Below, piece after piece: positions 1,563 to 9,876 of a stretch of DNA of 64,000 nucleotides. Numbering within the stretch: the stretch's first letter is position 1; every line of letters starts with the position of its first letter. Origin of the DNA: Capitulum mitella (Eukaryota > Arthropoda > Thecostraca > Pollicipedomorpha > Pollicipedidae); the NCBI GenBank assembly GCA_030062745.1, contig CP099841.1:11102970-11166969 (forward strand). Direction: 5' to 3'. The translations under genes were made by a program, and so were the position numbers. The notes below the pieces were generated by a model. It did no database searches. It had not been told where the DNA came from and saw only the letters and a program-made list of their open reading frames with translations.

Positions 1563-1958
1563 AGCATCACACGAGGAAAAACGTCTGCACGGTCGAGGTG
1601 CAACCGCACACATTCATCAAACGCCGTCACCTCATTGTCCAGGCTCGGGAGAGCTTGGGCTGCCTTGGTTCTCCCCTGTAGCGGCTTTCCCGGCGTCTGT
1701 CCTCGGAGGAAGCAATCTCTGTCGGTTCCCCTGGAAGGTGTCCAACGCGTCCCGCCGGCGTGCGGCGCGTCCTCAGACTGTGACCTCCTCCAGCTCTCCT
1801 GGAAGGTGTACCGTGTGTCTGTGCCAGTCCGCCGCCGTGTGGTGATTCTTAAGTGCTTGCTACGAAACCACAACCATAACACAGTCATGCGAGGGACCAG
1901 TACCCAAATGTCAGTTGTATTTGTGGTTTTTGTTTTGTTTGTTTTCAAGAGCGGTTCA
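1563..1958. other. GC-rich unassigned segment
   Basis: The stretch from about 1630 to 1850 is CpG-rich and open in more than one frame, but no protein family is recognised. A short direct repeat, CTGGAAGGTG, occurs at 1731 and 1799. It could be an old exon or a repeat fragment. Confidence 0.3.
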
Positions 1959-2279
1959 CTAGGGTGGTCCAAAATGCACGAAGTGTCTCCAGTACAACGG
2001 GAACTGGGTTTTTCTCATGGCCCTTTGTAAGAGCTTTCCAAAATTGGCGCGGTACGACGTATCTTGAGGAACTTTCACTTTGCCGCAAATCAGTTGAAAT
2101 TCTGCTATATTTTTAAGTTCCTGCCGGTGCCATGTTTTCGCACGGGCACGCGTAGAGATCGAGTACATGGGGAACTTATAAACTCATGAAATAATTGCGT
2201 CCTTTCAATCAGGCCGATTCAGATGGCACGTCAGACGTATCCTAATGCTGTTCTAAGGAAAAGGGACGTGAGGTTCCAT

Positions 2280-2850
2280 GGTTTATTTGATGTGAGCTTT
2301 CAAGAAACATAGACACGGTTTCCCCAAACTTCGTCGTCACCGATGCTTCGTCGGTAGTCACAGAAAATGCGTCGCTATACATGAACAGTCTGAACTCCAA
2401 CAGAATCCTTCACTACTTCCACAGCTGTTTTGGCATTCATGCTTCCCATGATTCTTACCATGCCCAAGTTCCGTTATTGGTTTTGTTAGGAACATGAATG
2501 TTCATATGTCGTCTGTTCCTCTAATCAATGCATTCATCAATGGACAACGAAAACCGCTTGCCGATCCTCAGCTGCTCTTTAAACGCCTTGGTACCATCTT
2601 CCTCCACTTAAGTAGCGCACCTTAGCACCAAATGGGTGAGTTTTACGATAACGAAGATCTCGTTCTGCTACGGCAGACCGAATAAAAAACCAAAGCCGTC
2701 TAAAGCCATGAGTTTTGCCCGCATTTCTCCAACTTTTCTTTCCTCAAGAATGCTTCTGTCTTTGGCTGGGTGCTCCTTGTCTTCGCTGTTTTGGAACTTG
2801 GTCCGTGTATGTTTGTATCGTCGATTAGAATGTGAAAGATAATTGTCAAA
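2280..2850 (-). pseudogene. hAT transposase fragment, left arm
   Basis: Read on the minus strand, this arm encodes broken pieces of a hAT transposase. Near 2700-2790 it reads KTAKTRSTQPKTEAFLRKEK. Near 2530-2570 it reads KRFSLSIDE, the family's RFSLTxDEW motif. Near 2300-2370 it reads SVTTDEASVTTKFGE. In hAT proteins the Asp of VTTDGAS is the first catalytic residue, and it is still present here. Frameshifts and stops break the frame, so it cannot make an active enzyme. The zinc-finger region, the rest of the catalytic core and the dimerisation domain are missing. Confidence 0.65.
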
Positions 2851-2907
2851 TGCAGAACGTCACTATAGCACTCTGTTATCATTTGCAGAACAATCATAAG
2901 GTTCAGA

Positions 2908-3510
2908 TCGGTGGCACAGACACATGCGGACCAGGCTCCAAGAAAGCAAAGACAAGTAGCAGCCAGCCAAAGACAAAAGCATTCTTAAGGAAAGAAAAGT
3001 CGGGAAAATGCTGGGAAAATTCGTGGCTTTAGACAACTTTGGTTTTAATGCTGTTACAAACAGTTCCTTTATTCGGTTTGCCGTAGCAGACCGAGGTTTC
3101 GTTATGCCGGAGGATCACGAAACTACGACTCATCTTGTGCTGAAATATGCTGCTGAAGTGAAAGAATACGTTGCAAAGAAGTTGAAAGAGAACATGAGGA
3201 CCGGTAATCGGGTTTCCTTGTCCATTGATGAGCACTAACCAGAGGAACAAACGATATATAAACATTCATGTTCACGAACAGAACCAACAGTGGAACTTGG
3301 GCATGGCAAAAAGCATGGTACGCATGGATGTCAAAACAGCTGTGGGAGCCGAGAATTTCTGTTGTAGCTCAGACTGTCTATGGATAATGACAACGTCCTT
3401 GTGACTGCTGTCGGAGCGTCGGTGATGGCGAAGGCTGGAAAAAACCCTGTCTGTGTTTCTTGGAAAGCTCACTTCAAATAAGCCATGGAAACCTGTATCC
3501 CTTTTTAACA
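2908..3510 (+). pseudogene. hAT transposase fragment, right arm
   Basis: The longest open piece, 3008-3238, includes FAVADRGFVMPEDHETTTHL and ends in NRVSLSIDEH, which follows the hAT pattern of a VDRGFxMP motif and then a RFSLTxDEW motif. Further on, around 3385-3450, a shifted frame reads DNDNVLVTAVGASVMAKAGK. The Asp expected before GAS is replaced by Val, so the first catalytic residue is lost in this arm. Stops and frameshifts occur throughout. This is the mirror partner of the fragment at 2280-2850, and the arms have diverged separately since duplication. Confidence 0.7.
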
Positions 3511-3597
3511 TACTCGTAACTTTAGAATGCGTCTGACGTGTCTCCTGAACCCGGCTGATTGAAAGGATGTAATTATTTTATGAGTTTATGAGTTCTC

Positions 3598-3950
3598 TAC
3601 GTACCCCTCTCTAGCCCTCACCCCGCCTCATCCCCACACCTTAAGGTATGATTTAAAATCTATAATGAACCCCGTTTTATCGATAAATTTATTGATAATC
3701 GATTAATAGGATAAAATTCCACCGTTTGCCGATAAAAAAAAATTATGTCGATTTCTAACCCTAGTACGGCCCCATCTTGATGCAGTTGCGGTGATAATGT
3801 AAGGCCCCGTTCCGGCACGGTCTGCAACTGAGAAGTGAGTTAGCATTACCCTCCTGCTCCGTTGGCGACTCTGTGTTTAGTGCTGATGGCGTGAGTCACA
3901 ACGGCGGCCTCCTGACAGCCAAACCTGACATCTCTGCACAACGACCAATC
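3598..3950. other. segment present only in the right arm of the hAT palindrome
   Basis: The left arm jumps from the sequence matching 3595 to that matching 3955, so these bases were either inserted here or deleted from the left arm. The stretch includes an AT-rich run of TCGATAA/TTATCGA-like words near 3675-3745. No coding frame is recognised. Confidence 0.5.
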
Positions 3951-4124
3951 AGAACATGGCGTTGCAAGCGCGCGAGCGCGAAAACTTGGCGCCGACGGGA
4001 ACTTGGTGAAAGTGTCTCAAACTATGTCGTGCCGCACAATTTTGGAAAGTTCTTGCAAGGGGGAATGAGAAAACCTCGGTTCCCGTTGTACTGGAGTAAC
4101 TTCGTGAATTCCGGACCACGCTAG

Positions 4125-4880
4125 CGGGACGCGTACAAATATAAACACGCCGTACGATGGCAAGACAATGCTCGTTTACGCGATAAGCAGTCTTCTCAGT
4201 TTCCCTCCACGAATTCATCGTAAGCGCATGCCCGATCGACAACGCAGGCAGCTTACGCCCGCTGTTTTCTGGTAATCAGTGTATCCCGCCGCTCCGCATA
4301 ACTGCGCCAAAAGAACATCCTGGCCGGGCCATGATTCGCAGCCAGCTACCAATAATAATCTCCAAAATGTTCTAAAATGGTCTTCAAAAATTATTTTTTA
4401 ATGCATAATCCCCCATAACGTAAGTAGCAGTGACATGAAATTAACCAAACGCAGGTAAAACTAGGTGGACCTATGAATGTGAATTGGATCGTGGAGTCTC
4501 ATGTTACAGGTGAGTAAAAACATGTGGTAATGTGTAAGTGTAAGCGTAATGCCCATGTAATATCCTAAGTGTAATATCTCCAACGGAAGGGCATGCAAGA
4601 TGGGAACGCATTCATTGTTGTATCCCATGAAAGAAATCGAAGGATAGGTTCTGAGGGAAGGGCGGAGCAGCCTTTCGGGTTTTCAATGTTGCGCCGTTGC
4701 GTAATATCTTGTTACTGGTGGTAAAAGGCACCCATGCTGTTGAATGAAATTCTGGTGTCGCTGACCGCCTAGCGTCCGTCTGAAGGCTCTCTGGTGTGGA
4801 CTGTATGTTTTATGGACACTAGAGGTCCGCGGCACGTAAATGGGCTACGCTCGGCTCAGGAGAAAAAGTAAGGAAGAATG
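4125..4880. other. unassigned sequence
   Basis: No gene, RNA or clear repeat was recognised between the hAT palindrome and the hairpin array. Confidence 0.4.
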
Positions 4881-4911
4881 GATGGGAAAATTCAGGGCAA
4901 GCAGGCGCAGA

Positions 4912-5223
4912 ATGCTACAATTCAGCAGCATGAAAGGAAAACCATCCAATTCAAGATGGTGTACGGTCCTAGCTTAGAATGCTACAATTCAGCAGCATAA
5001 AAGGAAAACCATCCAATTCAGGATGGCATACGGTTCCTAACCGAGAATGCTACAGTTCAGCAGCATGAAAGGAAGAACCAGCAAATTCAAGCTGGTATAG
5101 GTGAGGCAGGAACTCCAATTCATGAGCACAAAGAACACTCCAATTCAGGCGCGATGGGGTAGGAATGAACTAATTTCCAGAGTGGCAATTCAGCCAGCAA
5201 AGAGGCCTCCCATTCAAGAGGCC
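4912..5223 (+). repeat. array of short hairpins with a shared AATTCA loop
   Basis: Eight short inverted repeats follow one another, each closing on a loop with AATTCA, AGTTCA or CATTCA. Clear stems: ATGCT/AGCAT at 4912, 4979 and 5047; ACCATC/GATGGT at 4941-4960; CCATCC/GGATGG at 5009-5026; ACCAGC/GCTGGT at 5077-5096; TGGC/GCCA at 5183-5196; GGCCTC/GAGGCC at 5204-5223. The first six fall in three tandem units of about 67 bases. Stem sequences differ while pairing is kept and the loop stays constant. Two more CCAATTCA words (5114, 5140) have weak or no stems. Confidence 0.75.
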
Positions 5224-5485
5224 AAGGAGAGGGTAAAAGGAAACTCCCGAGCCCCGCGGACTATCATTTTTCTGCTATACGTCACTACACATCAATGCAC
5301 TGCCGCACACCATCACTGACAACGAATTTCTGTATTGAGGAGACGTCCGAACTGTTTGAGCGCCAGACAGGAAGAGAGAGAGGACGTGTTTAAGCCAAGC
5401 TTATATAGCGCGAACGAAAGAGGTCATGAGATAAAGGGGAGACATATTTTGGGGACAGAACAAACGGTAAAAGCAAATAGAGGTG

Positions 5486-5720
5486 GCCGGCCGGGTCCGG
5501 CGAGACGCGCGAAACCTCCGGCGAAGGGCGGCCGGCCGGCCGGCCGGGGCGTCGCGGCCCCACGCGGAACAAAGGCGGCGCAAACACAGATGGCCGGTCT
5601 GGTCCGGCGAAGACGTGCCGGACCGCCGGCGCAGGCCGGCCGGACCGGCCGGCTGGGCTTCGCCGCCCCACGCACAGGGCGCTGCACGACCGACGGTAAC
5701 AACTGGGTTCTTCCTCAGAG
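5486..5720. repeat. CpG-dense tandem duplication rich in GGCCGG
   Basis: Two diverged units of roughly 100 bases (from about 5486 and 5590) share GGTCCGGCGA, GGCCGGCCGG and GCCCCACGC. All six frames stay open for 80-130 codons, which reflects the composition and not real genes. The stretch is CpG-rich and may be an unmethylated island. It ends in AT-rich sequence with ATAAATAAATA near 5727. No product is proposed. Confidence 0.55.
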
Positions 5721-6914
5721 ACCCAGATAAATAAATATAAATATTCAAACCGTTCTCATGTTGTACATAATTTCCAGGATTATTTTTCTAACTTCATGAA
5801 TCTTGCGCAAAGATCAGGCCAGCCAAACGTTTTTGTTCACTTTAAGTTGCAAATGCACACCTTTATGCAATTTGCCTGTGGTCGCACTGTTGGCAGTGTC
5901 GTGTGAAGCGCTTTATCATACGACGGTGCTGCACTGCAAAGAAGTAGTTAGTATGCTGCCAAAGACTTAGAGTAAAACCAGTCAGGGCTGCAGGAGTTCC
6001 CAGTGTTCAAGTGAGCCACTGGGTGCGCACCGAGCCCACCCAAAGTACAAAACGTTAACGGAGGCAGCGCACAACGTAACTCAATTCCTTCGCGACCGTT
6101 AAGCGACTAATTACGATACTTGGCAAAGTTTAGAGTATTTGGAGGAGTGCATGCTCGGAGAAAGCCGCAAAAACGAGAAAAAGGACAAAAGTTAGCTGGG
6201 AGAAGGAAACGTTTTTAAAGTCCTAAGTGTAAATGACAAGAAGGAAAGTTTAAATGAAATATTTCACTTCCGTCAAGTTTCATGAAAACTTGGATGGTAT
6301 AAGAAATGTAGCCGAGAACGTCTTCTGTGTTAATTGTTTTTCCTTTCTATTCAACGTCCAGAAGTTTCAGAGAACGGGATTTATTAAAAACTGCAGTCTG
6401 CAGTAATCCGATGATGTGACACAGTACAAAGCTCTGTATGCCAGTGAACGTGAGCGCTCCTTGGCCGGCGTCCGCTTATGACGTCACGCAACAGCTGTAA
6501 ATAAGATGTGTCTGATCAGGACACACAGGAAAAAGATGGAAAATCGCTTCGAAGCTTCTTGAGTGTAGTGTTTTGAGACCATGTGTATTATATGTGTGCG
6601 TATGTATCTCACAACACGGCTACTAGGACGGCGGGCTACAACTGGACTGTCTCAGTCCAAAACAAGAGTCAAAGGGGAACTCAATGGGCAAGGTGGCATT
6701 CATTAAGACCCAGTAAATACTGTTACAAGTTGCCGTTTGAGTAAAGAAGGTACTTCCATCGATGGCACTTCCATCGGTTTTTGTTGTGCGGAAATTAATC
6801 CTCATACCCACGTGCGGAGGAGCCCGGAAGCGCAAACGTCATACATTTCTTCCACAACCCTCTCTGAATGTGCAGCGCTCAAGTCATGCAGCGAAACAAC
6901 AAAGACCTCACACG
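5721..6914. other. unassigned sequence
   Basis: Short frames only, without a recognised family. No tandem repeat or inverted repeat of note was found. Confidence 0.4.
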
Positions 6915-7570: not shown

Positions 7571-8155
7571 CAAGGTTCGGAAGTCGGGTCTTCGTATAGG
7601 AAAAGGTTCGTAGCCAAAGTTTCGTATGCATCATGTGCGTGTGGTAAAAGGTCCGTATTGAAAAAGTTAATTATGGTAAGTTATCTTGTGGTACGTTCGT
7701 TCTGCAGAAGGGTCGCATGGAAAAGATTCTTAGGACAAAGGTGCGTAAGGAAAAAGGTTCGTAACGACAGAGGTTCGTAACCAAAGGTTTGTCAACATAA
7801 GGTTCGTATCGGAAAAGGTTCGTATCAGACGAGATTTGCGTCGGAAAAGGTCCGTTCCGGGTTTGCGACCAGGGCGCGATATTCTTAACTATACTACGAT
7901 ATAGGATGCTAGTGGCCGCAGACCGATAAAGAGCGCGATCGGACTTGGCTTGGTCCAAAAAGAGGTTTGGTTAGGCTACTATTTTAGCCCGTATCTTTCC
8001 CGATACGAACCTTTTCCGATACGAACCAAACAAACCTTTTCCGATACGAACCTTTTCTGATGCAAACCTTTCGCCATACGAACTTTATGCATACGAACCT
8101 TTGGCTACGAACTTCTTCTCATACGAACCCTAGACTTACGAACCTTGATGCCAAA
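7571..8155. repeat. Foldback-like structure made of GGTTCGTA repeats in opposite orientations
   Basis: From 7571 to 7858 about fifteen degenerate copies of AAAAGGTTCGTATCGG run in the plus direction at mostly 14-20 base spacing. After about 140 bases of other sequence, about nine copies run in the opposite direction from 7999 to 8155 (CGATACGAACCTTTTCC and variants). The arms could pair as a long irregular hairpin. Drosophila Foldback elements are known to have long inverted ends made of short tandem repeats; this matches in layout, not in sequence. No transposase is seen in the central part. Confidence 0.7.
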
Positions 8156-8159
8156 CTCG

Positions 8160-9876
8160 TTTCCAAGCAATAGTGCTCGCATTCTTGAGCTGAGTGGGTT
8201 AATGTTTGAAGTCGTATCAATCGACACGCTCATCGATTGGATTTTAATGAGGTGGTGATGCTGATGGTAATGATATCTTTGTTTTGCGTACGCAGGACGT
8301 GATCTAATCCCCGGTCACGTGGCCCGGGAAAATGACTTATTGTTCATCTTATGAGATCACCTCTAATCCCGAACTAATCACAATTGTAAGAAACGTTTTG
8401 AAGAAATATTTCCTTTTCTGCATCGCTCTTTCTGGATGCACTGCATTACGATTGCCGAAGCTGAGCTGGCAAACTGTAGAAAAGTGCCAAAAACGTTAAT
8501 TACTTTTACAGACACAATGGTGATTTACCTTTGAAGGACAAAGGCTAATTACCTTTTTAGAAGAAAATGGCATTTCAGAACTAGTCTATATAAATGAAAT
8601 TCATCATCTTTTGAGTATTGCTGAGAAAACTTAAACCTTGTAAAATTCCTTAGCTGACTGGACGATTTGCCGTGGACAAATGATAAATGACATAACATAT
8701 TAGTTCAACCAATGTAGACAAATGATGACGGAACATATTAGTTTGATAAGAAATGATGATAAGAATCAAACTAGTACTGAAAATGGAAATAATGGCGAAA
8801 AGGAACCTTTCCTTTCCATATTTGCATTTGCTGTCATAGCTCTTTCTTTGCGTGGCAGAATCAATAAAAGGAGATTCAAAGCACAGATGTACTTTTCATG
8901 TTTGTCTTGGCATAGCAATGTTTATGTAATCCATCTATCCAAGTGTAATTTAATGAATGTCACTGATTTAGCTCTGCTACTGTGGCCAAAAAACGCAACA
9001 ATGTTCCCCAAGGAAATCAACAGCTGCATAGCAAAGAAGAACTACATGGTGCTGGCAATATGAAACAGTCGAACAAAACACGCCCGGGGCATCGCCTCGG
9101 AAATAAAAATGCCATCCAACATGCCTCTCAGGAGCCTCTCCTGGACCTTGCCTTGGAAACTACCAACATCAAATTTCCGGACTGCGTGGAAAAACTACGT
9201 AATGAAATACAACGAAGTTTCTAGGTTCTGCTTCAGATCGCTAACAGAGAGCGAGCGATCATAATGGGAGCTTACTAAACCTTGCGCATAACACAAAAAA
9301 GCTGTTAGTAGCAGGATTAGATGCGTAACGAAAACGACTCGAGTAGAACCTTTAAAAGACTTAATTTACACCGCGCCCAAAAGGGTGCAAAAATAAACAA
9401 ACTGATTGCTTTTTGCATCGCAGTGCGCAAAGAAACTACCGCAATATATGAAACAAATGTTATACTTAGGGAAACTAATAAGCCGCCGTTCACATGAGCT
9501 TCGAACAGTCTGCCGTTTTTGGCCGGAAGACATTAGTGGACTGCAGGGCAAATGCTGCCAGTTGCCCGTCTGAGGGACTGATGGGATGCAATGACGTGGT
9601 TCAGTCGCTCTCAAACAGGGCTGTGCTGCAGCGCACTTTTTGTGGTGAGCGCAGGTGGCATTACTATATAATCTTGGGCGTGACGCTCGCCAGACATGAC
9701 GGATAATTTGACTGACATGTCATAAAAAGTGTATCGGAGCAAGATGTGAATAGCGCAAATGTGTAATTTATCGAAATAACTGTCTTTTTTGTGTGTGTAA
9801 AATTGCAGACGTTTTGTTAAAAAGAATCTGACAGACTATTTGCACGGAGGGTATTCATAAATGCTCATCTCCTTGC
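8160..9876. other. unassigned sequence upstream of the GPCR exon
   Basis: Frames at 8722-9063 and 8982-9224 have no recognised domain and no coding-like composition. A donor-like GTGAGCG at about 9643 follows a moderately GC-rich stretch (9490-9642) and could mark a 5' UTR exon, leaving an intron of about 235 bases before the acceptor at 9877. This is speculative. Confidence 0.3.

Follow-up and report, generated by a model that had tools for sequence, protein, structure and literature searches.

A solo long terminal repeat (LTR) of an old BEL/Pao-type retrotransposon, identified by its anatomy at positions 4756-5701 of a 64,000-nucleotide stretch of DNA from Capitulum mitella (contig CP099841.1; this whole stretch is referred to below as the window), carries on its sense strand, the minus strand, a string of ten hairpins at 4912-5223 that all present one loop. 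The loop is the hexamer TGAATT on that strand, and the stems below it, of seven pairs or fewer, vary in sequence yet stay paired while the loop remains constant. That the string of hairpins with a common loop is real is confirmed by several controls. In the RNA of a complete element the array would lie in the leader, where it may well be a multivalent recognition site read by Gag/nucleocapsid, by loop-loop kissing or by both, for packaging or dimerisation; this function is proposed by analogy, and our judgement of it is evenly balanced.

The hairpin array

Eleven AATTCA-like loops, as they read on the plus strand, are present within 4889-5216, and on the minus strand ten of them have at least five of seven possible pairs around a loop of 6 nt; the eleventh such core, at 4889, has two of seven and is an unpaired site. 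In sense orientation, and so with falling coordinates, the hairpins are F (5204-5223, loop 5211-5216, 7/7 pairs), E (5180-5199, loop 5187-5192, 5/7), D (5135-5154, loop 5142-5147, 5/7), C (5110-5129, loop 5117-5122, 5/7), B3 (5077-5096, loop 5084-5089, 6/7), A3 (5047-5066, loop 5054-5059, 7/7), B2 (5008-5027, loop 5015-5020, 7/7), A2 (4979-4998, loop 4986-4991, 7/7), B1 (4941-4960, loop 4948-4953, 7/7) and A1 (4912-4931, loop 4919-4924, 7/7). The loop is exact in eight of the ten, the others being TGAACT at 5054 and TGAATG at 5211. The A- and B-type hairpins belong to a 67-bp tandem repeat of 2.8 copies (4909-5099, minus strand) that has one of each type per copy. A first-pass annotation made from the letters alone had described at least eight hairpins with a constant AATTCA loop and quoted five pairs of stem sequences; all five are present, and its coordinates are exact for stems of seven positions, while the strand on which it read them, the plus strand, is the one that folds less well.

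Between units the loops are 93% identical, the stems 41-47% and the flanks 45-47%. The four columns that are invariant over all ten units spell UGAA, and the AAUU palindrome is not fully invariant. The linkers between the hairpins are U- and C-rich on the sense strand.

Within 4880-5240 there are nine exact TGAATT sequences, eight of them in hairpins, and 5000 dinucleotide shuffles of that region gave a mean of 0.034 such hairpins and a maximum of two, so the shuffled-sequence control that the first-pass annotation had proposed bears out its claim. Elsewhere in the window 8 of 54 exact TGAATT or AATTCA sites have at least five of seven pairs, against the eight of nine inside the array. When arms were permuted among the 11 units, none of 20000 permutations reached the observed 65 pairs out of 77 (permuted mean 42.7), and again none of 20000 reached the observed pairing after removal of two near-identical units. 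A covariation analysis of the ten units found 90% of cells paired versus 58.8% when shuffled, and a score of 0.860 versus 0.292, neither being reached in 500 shuffles. Pairs in which both partners have changed number six versus 4.8 in shuffles, a count that 118 of the 500 reached and that is not unusual. Within the 67-bp tandem repeats only one double compensation is clear, T-A to G-C (unit 4948 versus unit 5084); two one-sided changes keep pairing and one further change loses a wobble pair. With these two cautions the earlier description, of stems that change yet pair around a constant loop, is correct.

A model built from all ten hairpins, run across the window, returned six of the array hairpins and two other places (E 0.05 and 1). 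One built from just the six tandem-repeat hairpins recovered four of its own six in the 64 kb, and its next-best places there were two of the four other hairpins, at 5199-5227 (E 0.05) and 5130-5157 (E 0.54); the remaining two gave short partial matches only, with one place outside the array scoring slightly above.

Both folding and wobble pairing distinguish the strands. The fold z-score is -2.23 for the plus strand and -3.88 for the minus strand and, unit by unit, the minus strand is the more stable in all ten paired hairpins, the exception being the unpaired site at 4889. The window copy has nine wobble pairs, every one of them G-U when read on the minus (sense) strand and none on the plus strand. 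Permuted units already give 75-78% G-U, and so base composition accounts for much of this bias; arm permutations without A-C and with at least the observed G-U number 104 in 20000, or 483 in 20000 with redundant units removed. The bias is thus only suggestive of RNA made from the sense strand. That the minus strand is the sense strand follows from the anatomy of the element, independently of folding and of G-U pairs. A different kind of role, in which the array acts as DNA or during reverse transcription or integration, as a cruciform, a strand-transfer landmark or a target of host silencing, would suit its location inside an LTR and its consequent presence twice in the DNA copy of an element. 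The nine wobble pairs tell against it to the modest extent that composition allows, and we consider its prospects slight.

The host element

A search of the 477-Mb, 16-contig genome with the array found 136 candidates, of which 40 were scored, counting the window copy. Identity to the window array is 89-93% in the other 39, and together with it they occupy 15 of the 16 contigs. Among 29 other copies the limits of likeness coincide, with the start at most 7 bp from 4756 in 24 and the end at most 11 bp from 5701 in 27, and these shared boundaries, with their TG..CA ends, define an LTR of 946 bp (4756-5701, minus strand, TGTTAC...GCGACA). The bases on either side of the window LTR, TCTGG at 4751-4755 on the left and ACTGG at 5702-5706 on the right, agree at four of five positions and are the remnant of a target-site duplication. 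Both ends were available in 26 of 30 copies; a perfect 5-bp duplication was found in 13 of the 26 and agreement at four of five bases in 7, the window copy among these 7, while three of the rest adjoin a purine-tract-like flank (C-rich on the plus strand) and three show neither. A further LTR copy (L015, 229-1438) is interrupted, at the position matching window 4837-4839, by some 1.2 kb of inserted sequence.

One copy, L040, retains two direct LTRs, at 473-1399 and 8101-9046, which are 6.7 kb apart and 91.4% identical to each other and bear 10 and 9 hairpins with at least five of seven pairs and at most one loop change. The longest frames of its interior, of 857 and 416 aa, are both in the minus sense of the LTR. 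Domain matches are to Peptidase_A17 (PF05380, 3.4e-47), Integrase_H2C2 (PF17921, 4.4e-9) and DUF1759 (6.6e-11), with RT_RNaseH_2 at 0.0016, which is under its curated cut-off; a reverse transcriptase domain gave zero matches at E 0.01 in the seven stop-to-stop frames of this one old copy. A purine tract precedes the 3′ LTR. Inspection by eye of the same single copy found no TGG-starting primer-binding site after the 5′ LTR. A single CCHC zinc-knuckle motif occurs, not in the DUF1759 frame proper, but in a 146-aa frame (5867-6307) overlapping its end.

From the dispersed copies, the target duplications and the L040 LTR pair with its Pao domains, the window copy is assigned as a BEL/Pao-type solo LTR. 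With BEL/Pao LTR retrotransposons the array family has in common the LTR pair, TG..CA ends, 5-bp duplications, peptidase A17, the integrase zinc domain and DUF1759; what sets it apart is an LTR with ten hairpins that share a single hexaloop, an array seen in none of the 2.5-2.6-kb stretches after pol in four distant relatives of the same genome. The first-pass annotation had stated that it knew no element class of this design and, as far as the host element is concerned, that was mistaken.

The same evidence bears on whether the array might instead belong to a stand-alone host noncoding RNA, or to the leader of a gene, unconnected with mobile elements. The TATA box described below would accord with such an origin, as would the absence of any minus-strand frame longer than 73 aa in 4201-5380. 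Dispersed copies, target duplications and an LTR pair enclosing Pao domains are not what it would leave behind, and the dispersed LTR copies rule it out as the primary nature of the sequence, whether as an independent gene for a noncoding RNA or as the leader of a gene on the minus strand; we find the idea barely credible. Protein coding by the array was likewise rejected, its repeat period of 67-68 not being a multiple of three and minus frames there being limited as just described. No tRNA was found in the window.

The predicted RNA leader

A TATA box, TATATAAG, is present at 5400-5407 on the minus strand, and either TATATAAG or TATATAAA is found at the equivalent position in 22 of 30 copies. 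Upstream of it, in U3, is a GC-rich 108-bp repeat of 1.9 copies (5473-5673, minus strand). Downstream, at 5331-5336 on the same strand, AATACA followed by a GT-rich stretch is a candidate variant poly(A) signal. It occurs at the equivalent place in 20 of 30 copies, and AATAAA and ATTAAA are absent in all 30 from the 500 bases from the array onward. The order in the sense direction is then U3, TATA box, AATACA, the ten hairpins and a final stretch of about 155 bases, an order that places the array between the TATA box and the coding interior. With initiation about 30 bases past the TATA box, at approximately 5377, the array would span leader positions from about +155 to about +465. If AATACA does end R, the array would be in U5 and hence at the 5′ end only of the genomic RNA. 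With the predicted start site there would be several stem-loops in the 5′ leader upstream of gag, the arrangement by which packaging or dimerisation signals are recognised.

CpG is unevenly distributed along the LTR, with observed/expected ratios of 0.43 and 0.32 in two 150-base bins inside the array (4951-5250), of 1.39 and 1.17 in two U3 bins (5401-5700) and, for comparison, of 0.95 over the whole window. Elsewhere in the window, 24 bases at 1333-1356 match the sense LTR just before the array at 88% and can pair with 5220-5243; they may be a fragment or be due to chance.

Conservation among copies

The arrays of 44 copies were aligned, 38 chosen by likeness to the window array (which is itself included) and 6 by a three-loop pattern, a choice that favours intact arrays. 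Depending on the hairpin, 35 to 44 of these 44 have at least five of seven pairs. Other copies that lack the pairing, an outcome that the first-pass annotation had named as fatal to its proposal, are therefore not what was found; the selection of copies by likeness is to be kept in mind here also. Divergence among copies is only slightly lower in the loop (0.048) than in the linkers (0.065). Within the loop it ranges from 0.018 to 0.050 over positions 1-4 and rises to 0.108 at position 5, where it exceeds that of the linkers and the change is often to TGAACT.

Covariation across this alignment is weak, with 87.9% of cells paired versus 87.6% in shuffles (reached by 7 of 500), a score reached by 57 of 500 and nine double-change cells versus 4.4 (reached by 5 of 500). 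When the pairing partner was slid as a control, double-change cells numbered 7 to 20 and in most cases equalled or exceeded those of the real pairing. This is to be expected of dead copies decaying after insertion, yet it lends no support to the structure. Two copies (L076 and L077) have in common some 82 additional bases, composed of AAGTTA-like repeats, between hairpins D and C and represent a subfamily with an altered array.

A second LTR family and distant relatives

Scanning the genome for three TGAATT spaced as in the array yielded 418 matches versus 121 for the reversed pattern, and among the matches listed many overlap or come from the first family. The scan also led to a second, old LTR family that is 49-52% identical to the first in a forced alignment. 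Its other places are 65-80% identical to the reference copy (L074), save for one short piece at 89%, and its members end alike (GTCCGCAACA); the reference copy has, by eye, GTTTT on both sides if its start is taken as TATTGC. The second family retains a TATA-like box and a TGAATT array, the stems of which are mostly CTCT/AGAG. In its eleven arrays 25 of 41 exact loops have at least five of seven pairs (23 of 34 in ten arrays and 2 of 7 in L075) versus a background of 8.9%. The arms there are alike and so pairing with the own arm is not clearly above that given by swaps, which reached it in 2694, 814 and 1060 of 5000 for three arrays. Four L040 frames gave zero matches in the second-family loci L073-L075 and in two first-family LTR neighbourhoods (L041 and L042).

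No recurrent-loop array was detected in the 2.5-2.6 kb after pol of four distant BEL relatives (pol identity 37-41%), stretches that may not contain the LTR; they give no backing to the array being a general BEL/Pao feature. The sequence after pol of a 63% relative (L091) matches the LTR over its first 421 bases but stops short of the array, and so is uninformative about it.

Two diverged families with one loop have a bearing on whether the stems need reflect function at all. Tandem duplication combined with template-switch (quasi-palindrome) repair might make and mend stems with no functional selection, and template switching can produce both hairpins and compensatory changes (PMC8794818); that the array is in part a 67-bp tandem repeat is in keeping with this. 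Such a process gives no reason for the constancy of one loop beside diverging stems and flanks, or for the recurrence of the loop array in a family that is only some 50% identical. In PMC8794818, loops of six bases are under-represented in the class of instantaneous compensations (5.22% versus 9.88%). As a complete account it seems improbable to us. Template switching may nevertheless be the source of the stems, with the constancy of the loop left unexplained. Between selection on structure and a copying mechanism, the two explanations that the first-pass annotation had offered, selection is the better supported since loops are kept and stems are free to differ but paired; copying fares as a possible origin of stems and not as the reason for the constant loop.

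Proposed function

To our knowledge, little has been learned of the means by which BEL/Pao elements select their own RNA. On the reading preferred here, as a packaging or dimerisation signal, the TATA box in the LTR of a complete element would start an RNA with ten UGAAUU-loop hairpins in its leader, and the repeated exposed loop would be a multivalent site aiding packaging of that RNA. The reader of the loops could be the element's own Gag/nucleocapsid, for which the CCHC motif of L040 is a candidate. Alternatively, the AAUU in UGAAUU is a 4-base palindrome and kissing loops could pair two genomes, and binding by Gag/nucleocapsid could operate together with kissing. The stems would merely present the loop and would be free to change provided they remained paired, with the loop fixed. 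The frequent TGAACT variant speaks against a strict need for the AAUU palindrome, and the invariant UGAA columns fit reading by a protein.

Precedents are known from other retroelements. In the leaders of gammaretroviruses (PMC3265304), two stem-loops present an identical GACG loop and kiss, by way of a palindrome of 2 bases, close to the packaging signal. What they share with the present case is that unlike hairpins in a 5′ leader present one loop, and that this loop contains a palindrome able to kiss; the difference is that the two GACG hairpins are between the primer site and gag, whereas here there are ten hexaloops inside the LTR, with a role that we infer. Ty1, also an LTR retrotransposon with leader hairpins, is proposed to use kissing hairpins there for packaging or dimerisation (PMC5454406), though with two hairpins bearing complementary loop motifs rather than a single repeated loop.

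The protein that reads the loops could also be one of the host. The same leader array would then serve a host RNA-binding protein that acts on the export, the stability or the translation of the element's RNA, as a multi-site platform in the manner of iron-responsive element or Roquin stem-loops. Six cooperating stem-loops in Nfkbid (PMC6145892), the XIST A-repeats with their U-rich linkers (PMC10870365) and the roXbox stem-loops (PMC4719309) are precedents, and the U/C-rich linkers of the array and the invariance of UGAA rather than of the palindrome are compatible with such a reader. The likeness to the XIST A-repeat, which belongs to a host noncoding RNA, extends to repeated hairpin units, variable sequence and U-rich linkers. 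Neither of the two host motifs tested fits. With the Roquin ADE and iron-responsive elements the resemblance is that of a hexaloop on a variable stem. The ADE requires a GUUYUA-like hexaloop with U at positions 2 and 3 (PMC11609897), which UGAAUU and AAUUCA lack, and the iron-responsive element needs a bulged C five pairs below a loop with an AGU apex (PMC8466369), features absent from the UGAAUU hairpins. No Rfam 15 family was found at gathering score in the 64 kb; a low-score search of 3900-5800 gave three matches far below gathering scores, two of them over the array. The leader ahead of the coding interior is, moreover, where retroelements hold packaging structures (PMC3265304, PMC5454406). 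Reading by a host protein is accordingly a less likely explanation, though the main rival to the preferred one.

Returning to packaging or dimerisation of the element's own RNA, it is conceivable, and somewhat short of an even call, that a retrotransposon lineage built a leader signal of about ten hairpins with one hexaloop that has outlasted the alignability of its LTRs, a natural counterpart of MS2-type arrays, with Gag or kissing as its reader, in which copy number and stems evolve and the loop is fixed. The host element and leader hairpins are of kinds already known. A ten-unit constant-hexaloop array in a BEL/Pao LTR is named in the title or the opening of the abstract by none of the 20 papers listed, of 525, on Bel-Pao LTRs and packaging, and neither UGAAUU nor AAUUCA was met as a loop word, with most subscription papers outside the scope of both searches; the part of PMC3286476 at hand discusses tandem repeats in LTR elements and does not extend to hairpins. 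The array had no match in phage records. Two 18-base patterns gave 5 and 4 stretches in viral contigs; none of these is an array and no strand of them has more than two exact-loop hairpins, which by estimate is about chance level, and one 20-base pattern gave zero matches in bacterial and archaeal genome contigs. A ten-site array with a fixed loop is an object of defined sequence on which multivalent recognition and dimerisation of RNA can be tested in the BEL/Pao superfamily, two diverged LTR families with the same loop are available for comparison, and constant-loop hairpins can mark functional leader RNA within dead genome copies.

Other features of the window

Several further features of the window are outside the LTR. 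A large diverged foldback at 1936-4147 has nested inverted arms that are 73-93% complementary around a 71-base centre (2831-2901), and is a possible source of long hairpin RNA. At 383-1554 an 18-bp perfect inverted repeat (383-400 and 1537-1554) resembles the ends of a small terminal-inverted-repeat element, and a 21-base near-palindrome at 395-415 of this putative element recurs at 1521-1541. Repeats of 16 bases (AAGGTTCGTATCGGAA) at 7571-8147 are in head-to-head arrays and form inverted arms. A long open frame at 9832-11100 matches the rhodopsin-family receptors (Pfam 7tm_1, 2e-19), and by sequence its best solved chain is lysophosphatidic acid receptor 1.
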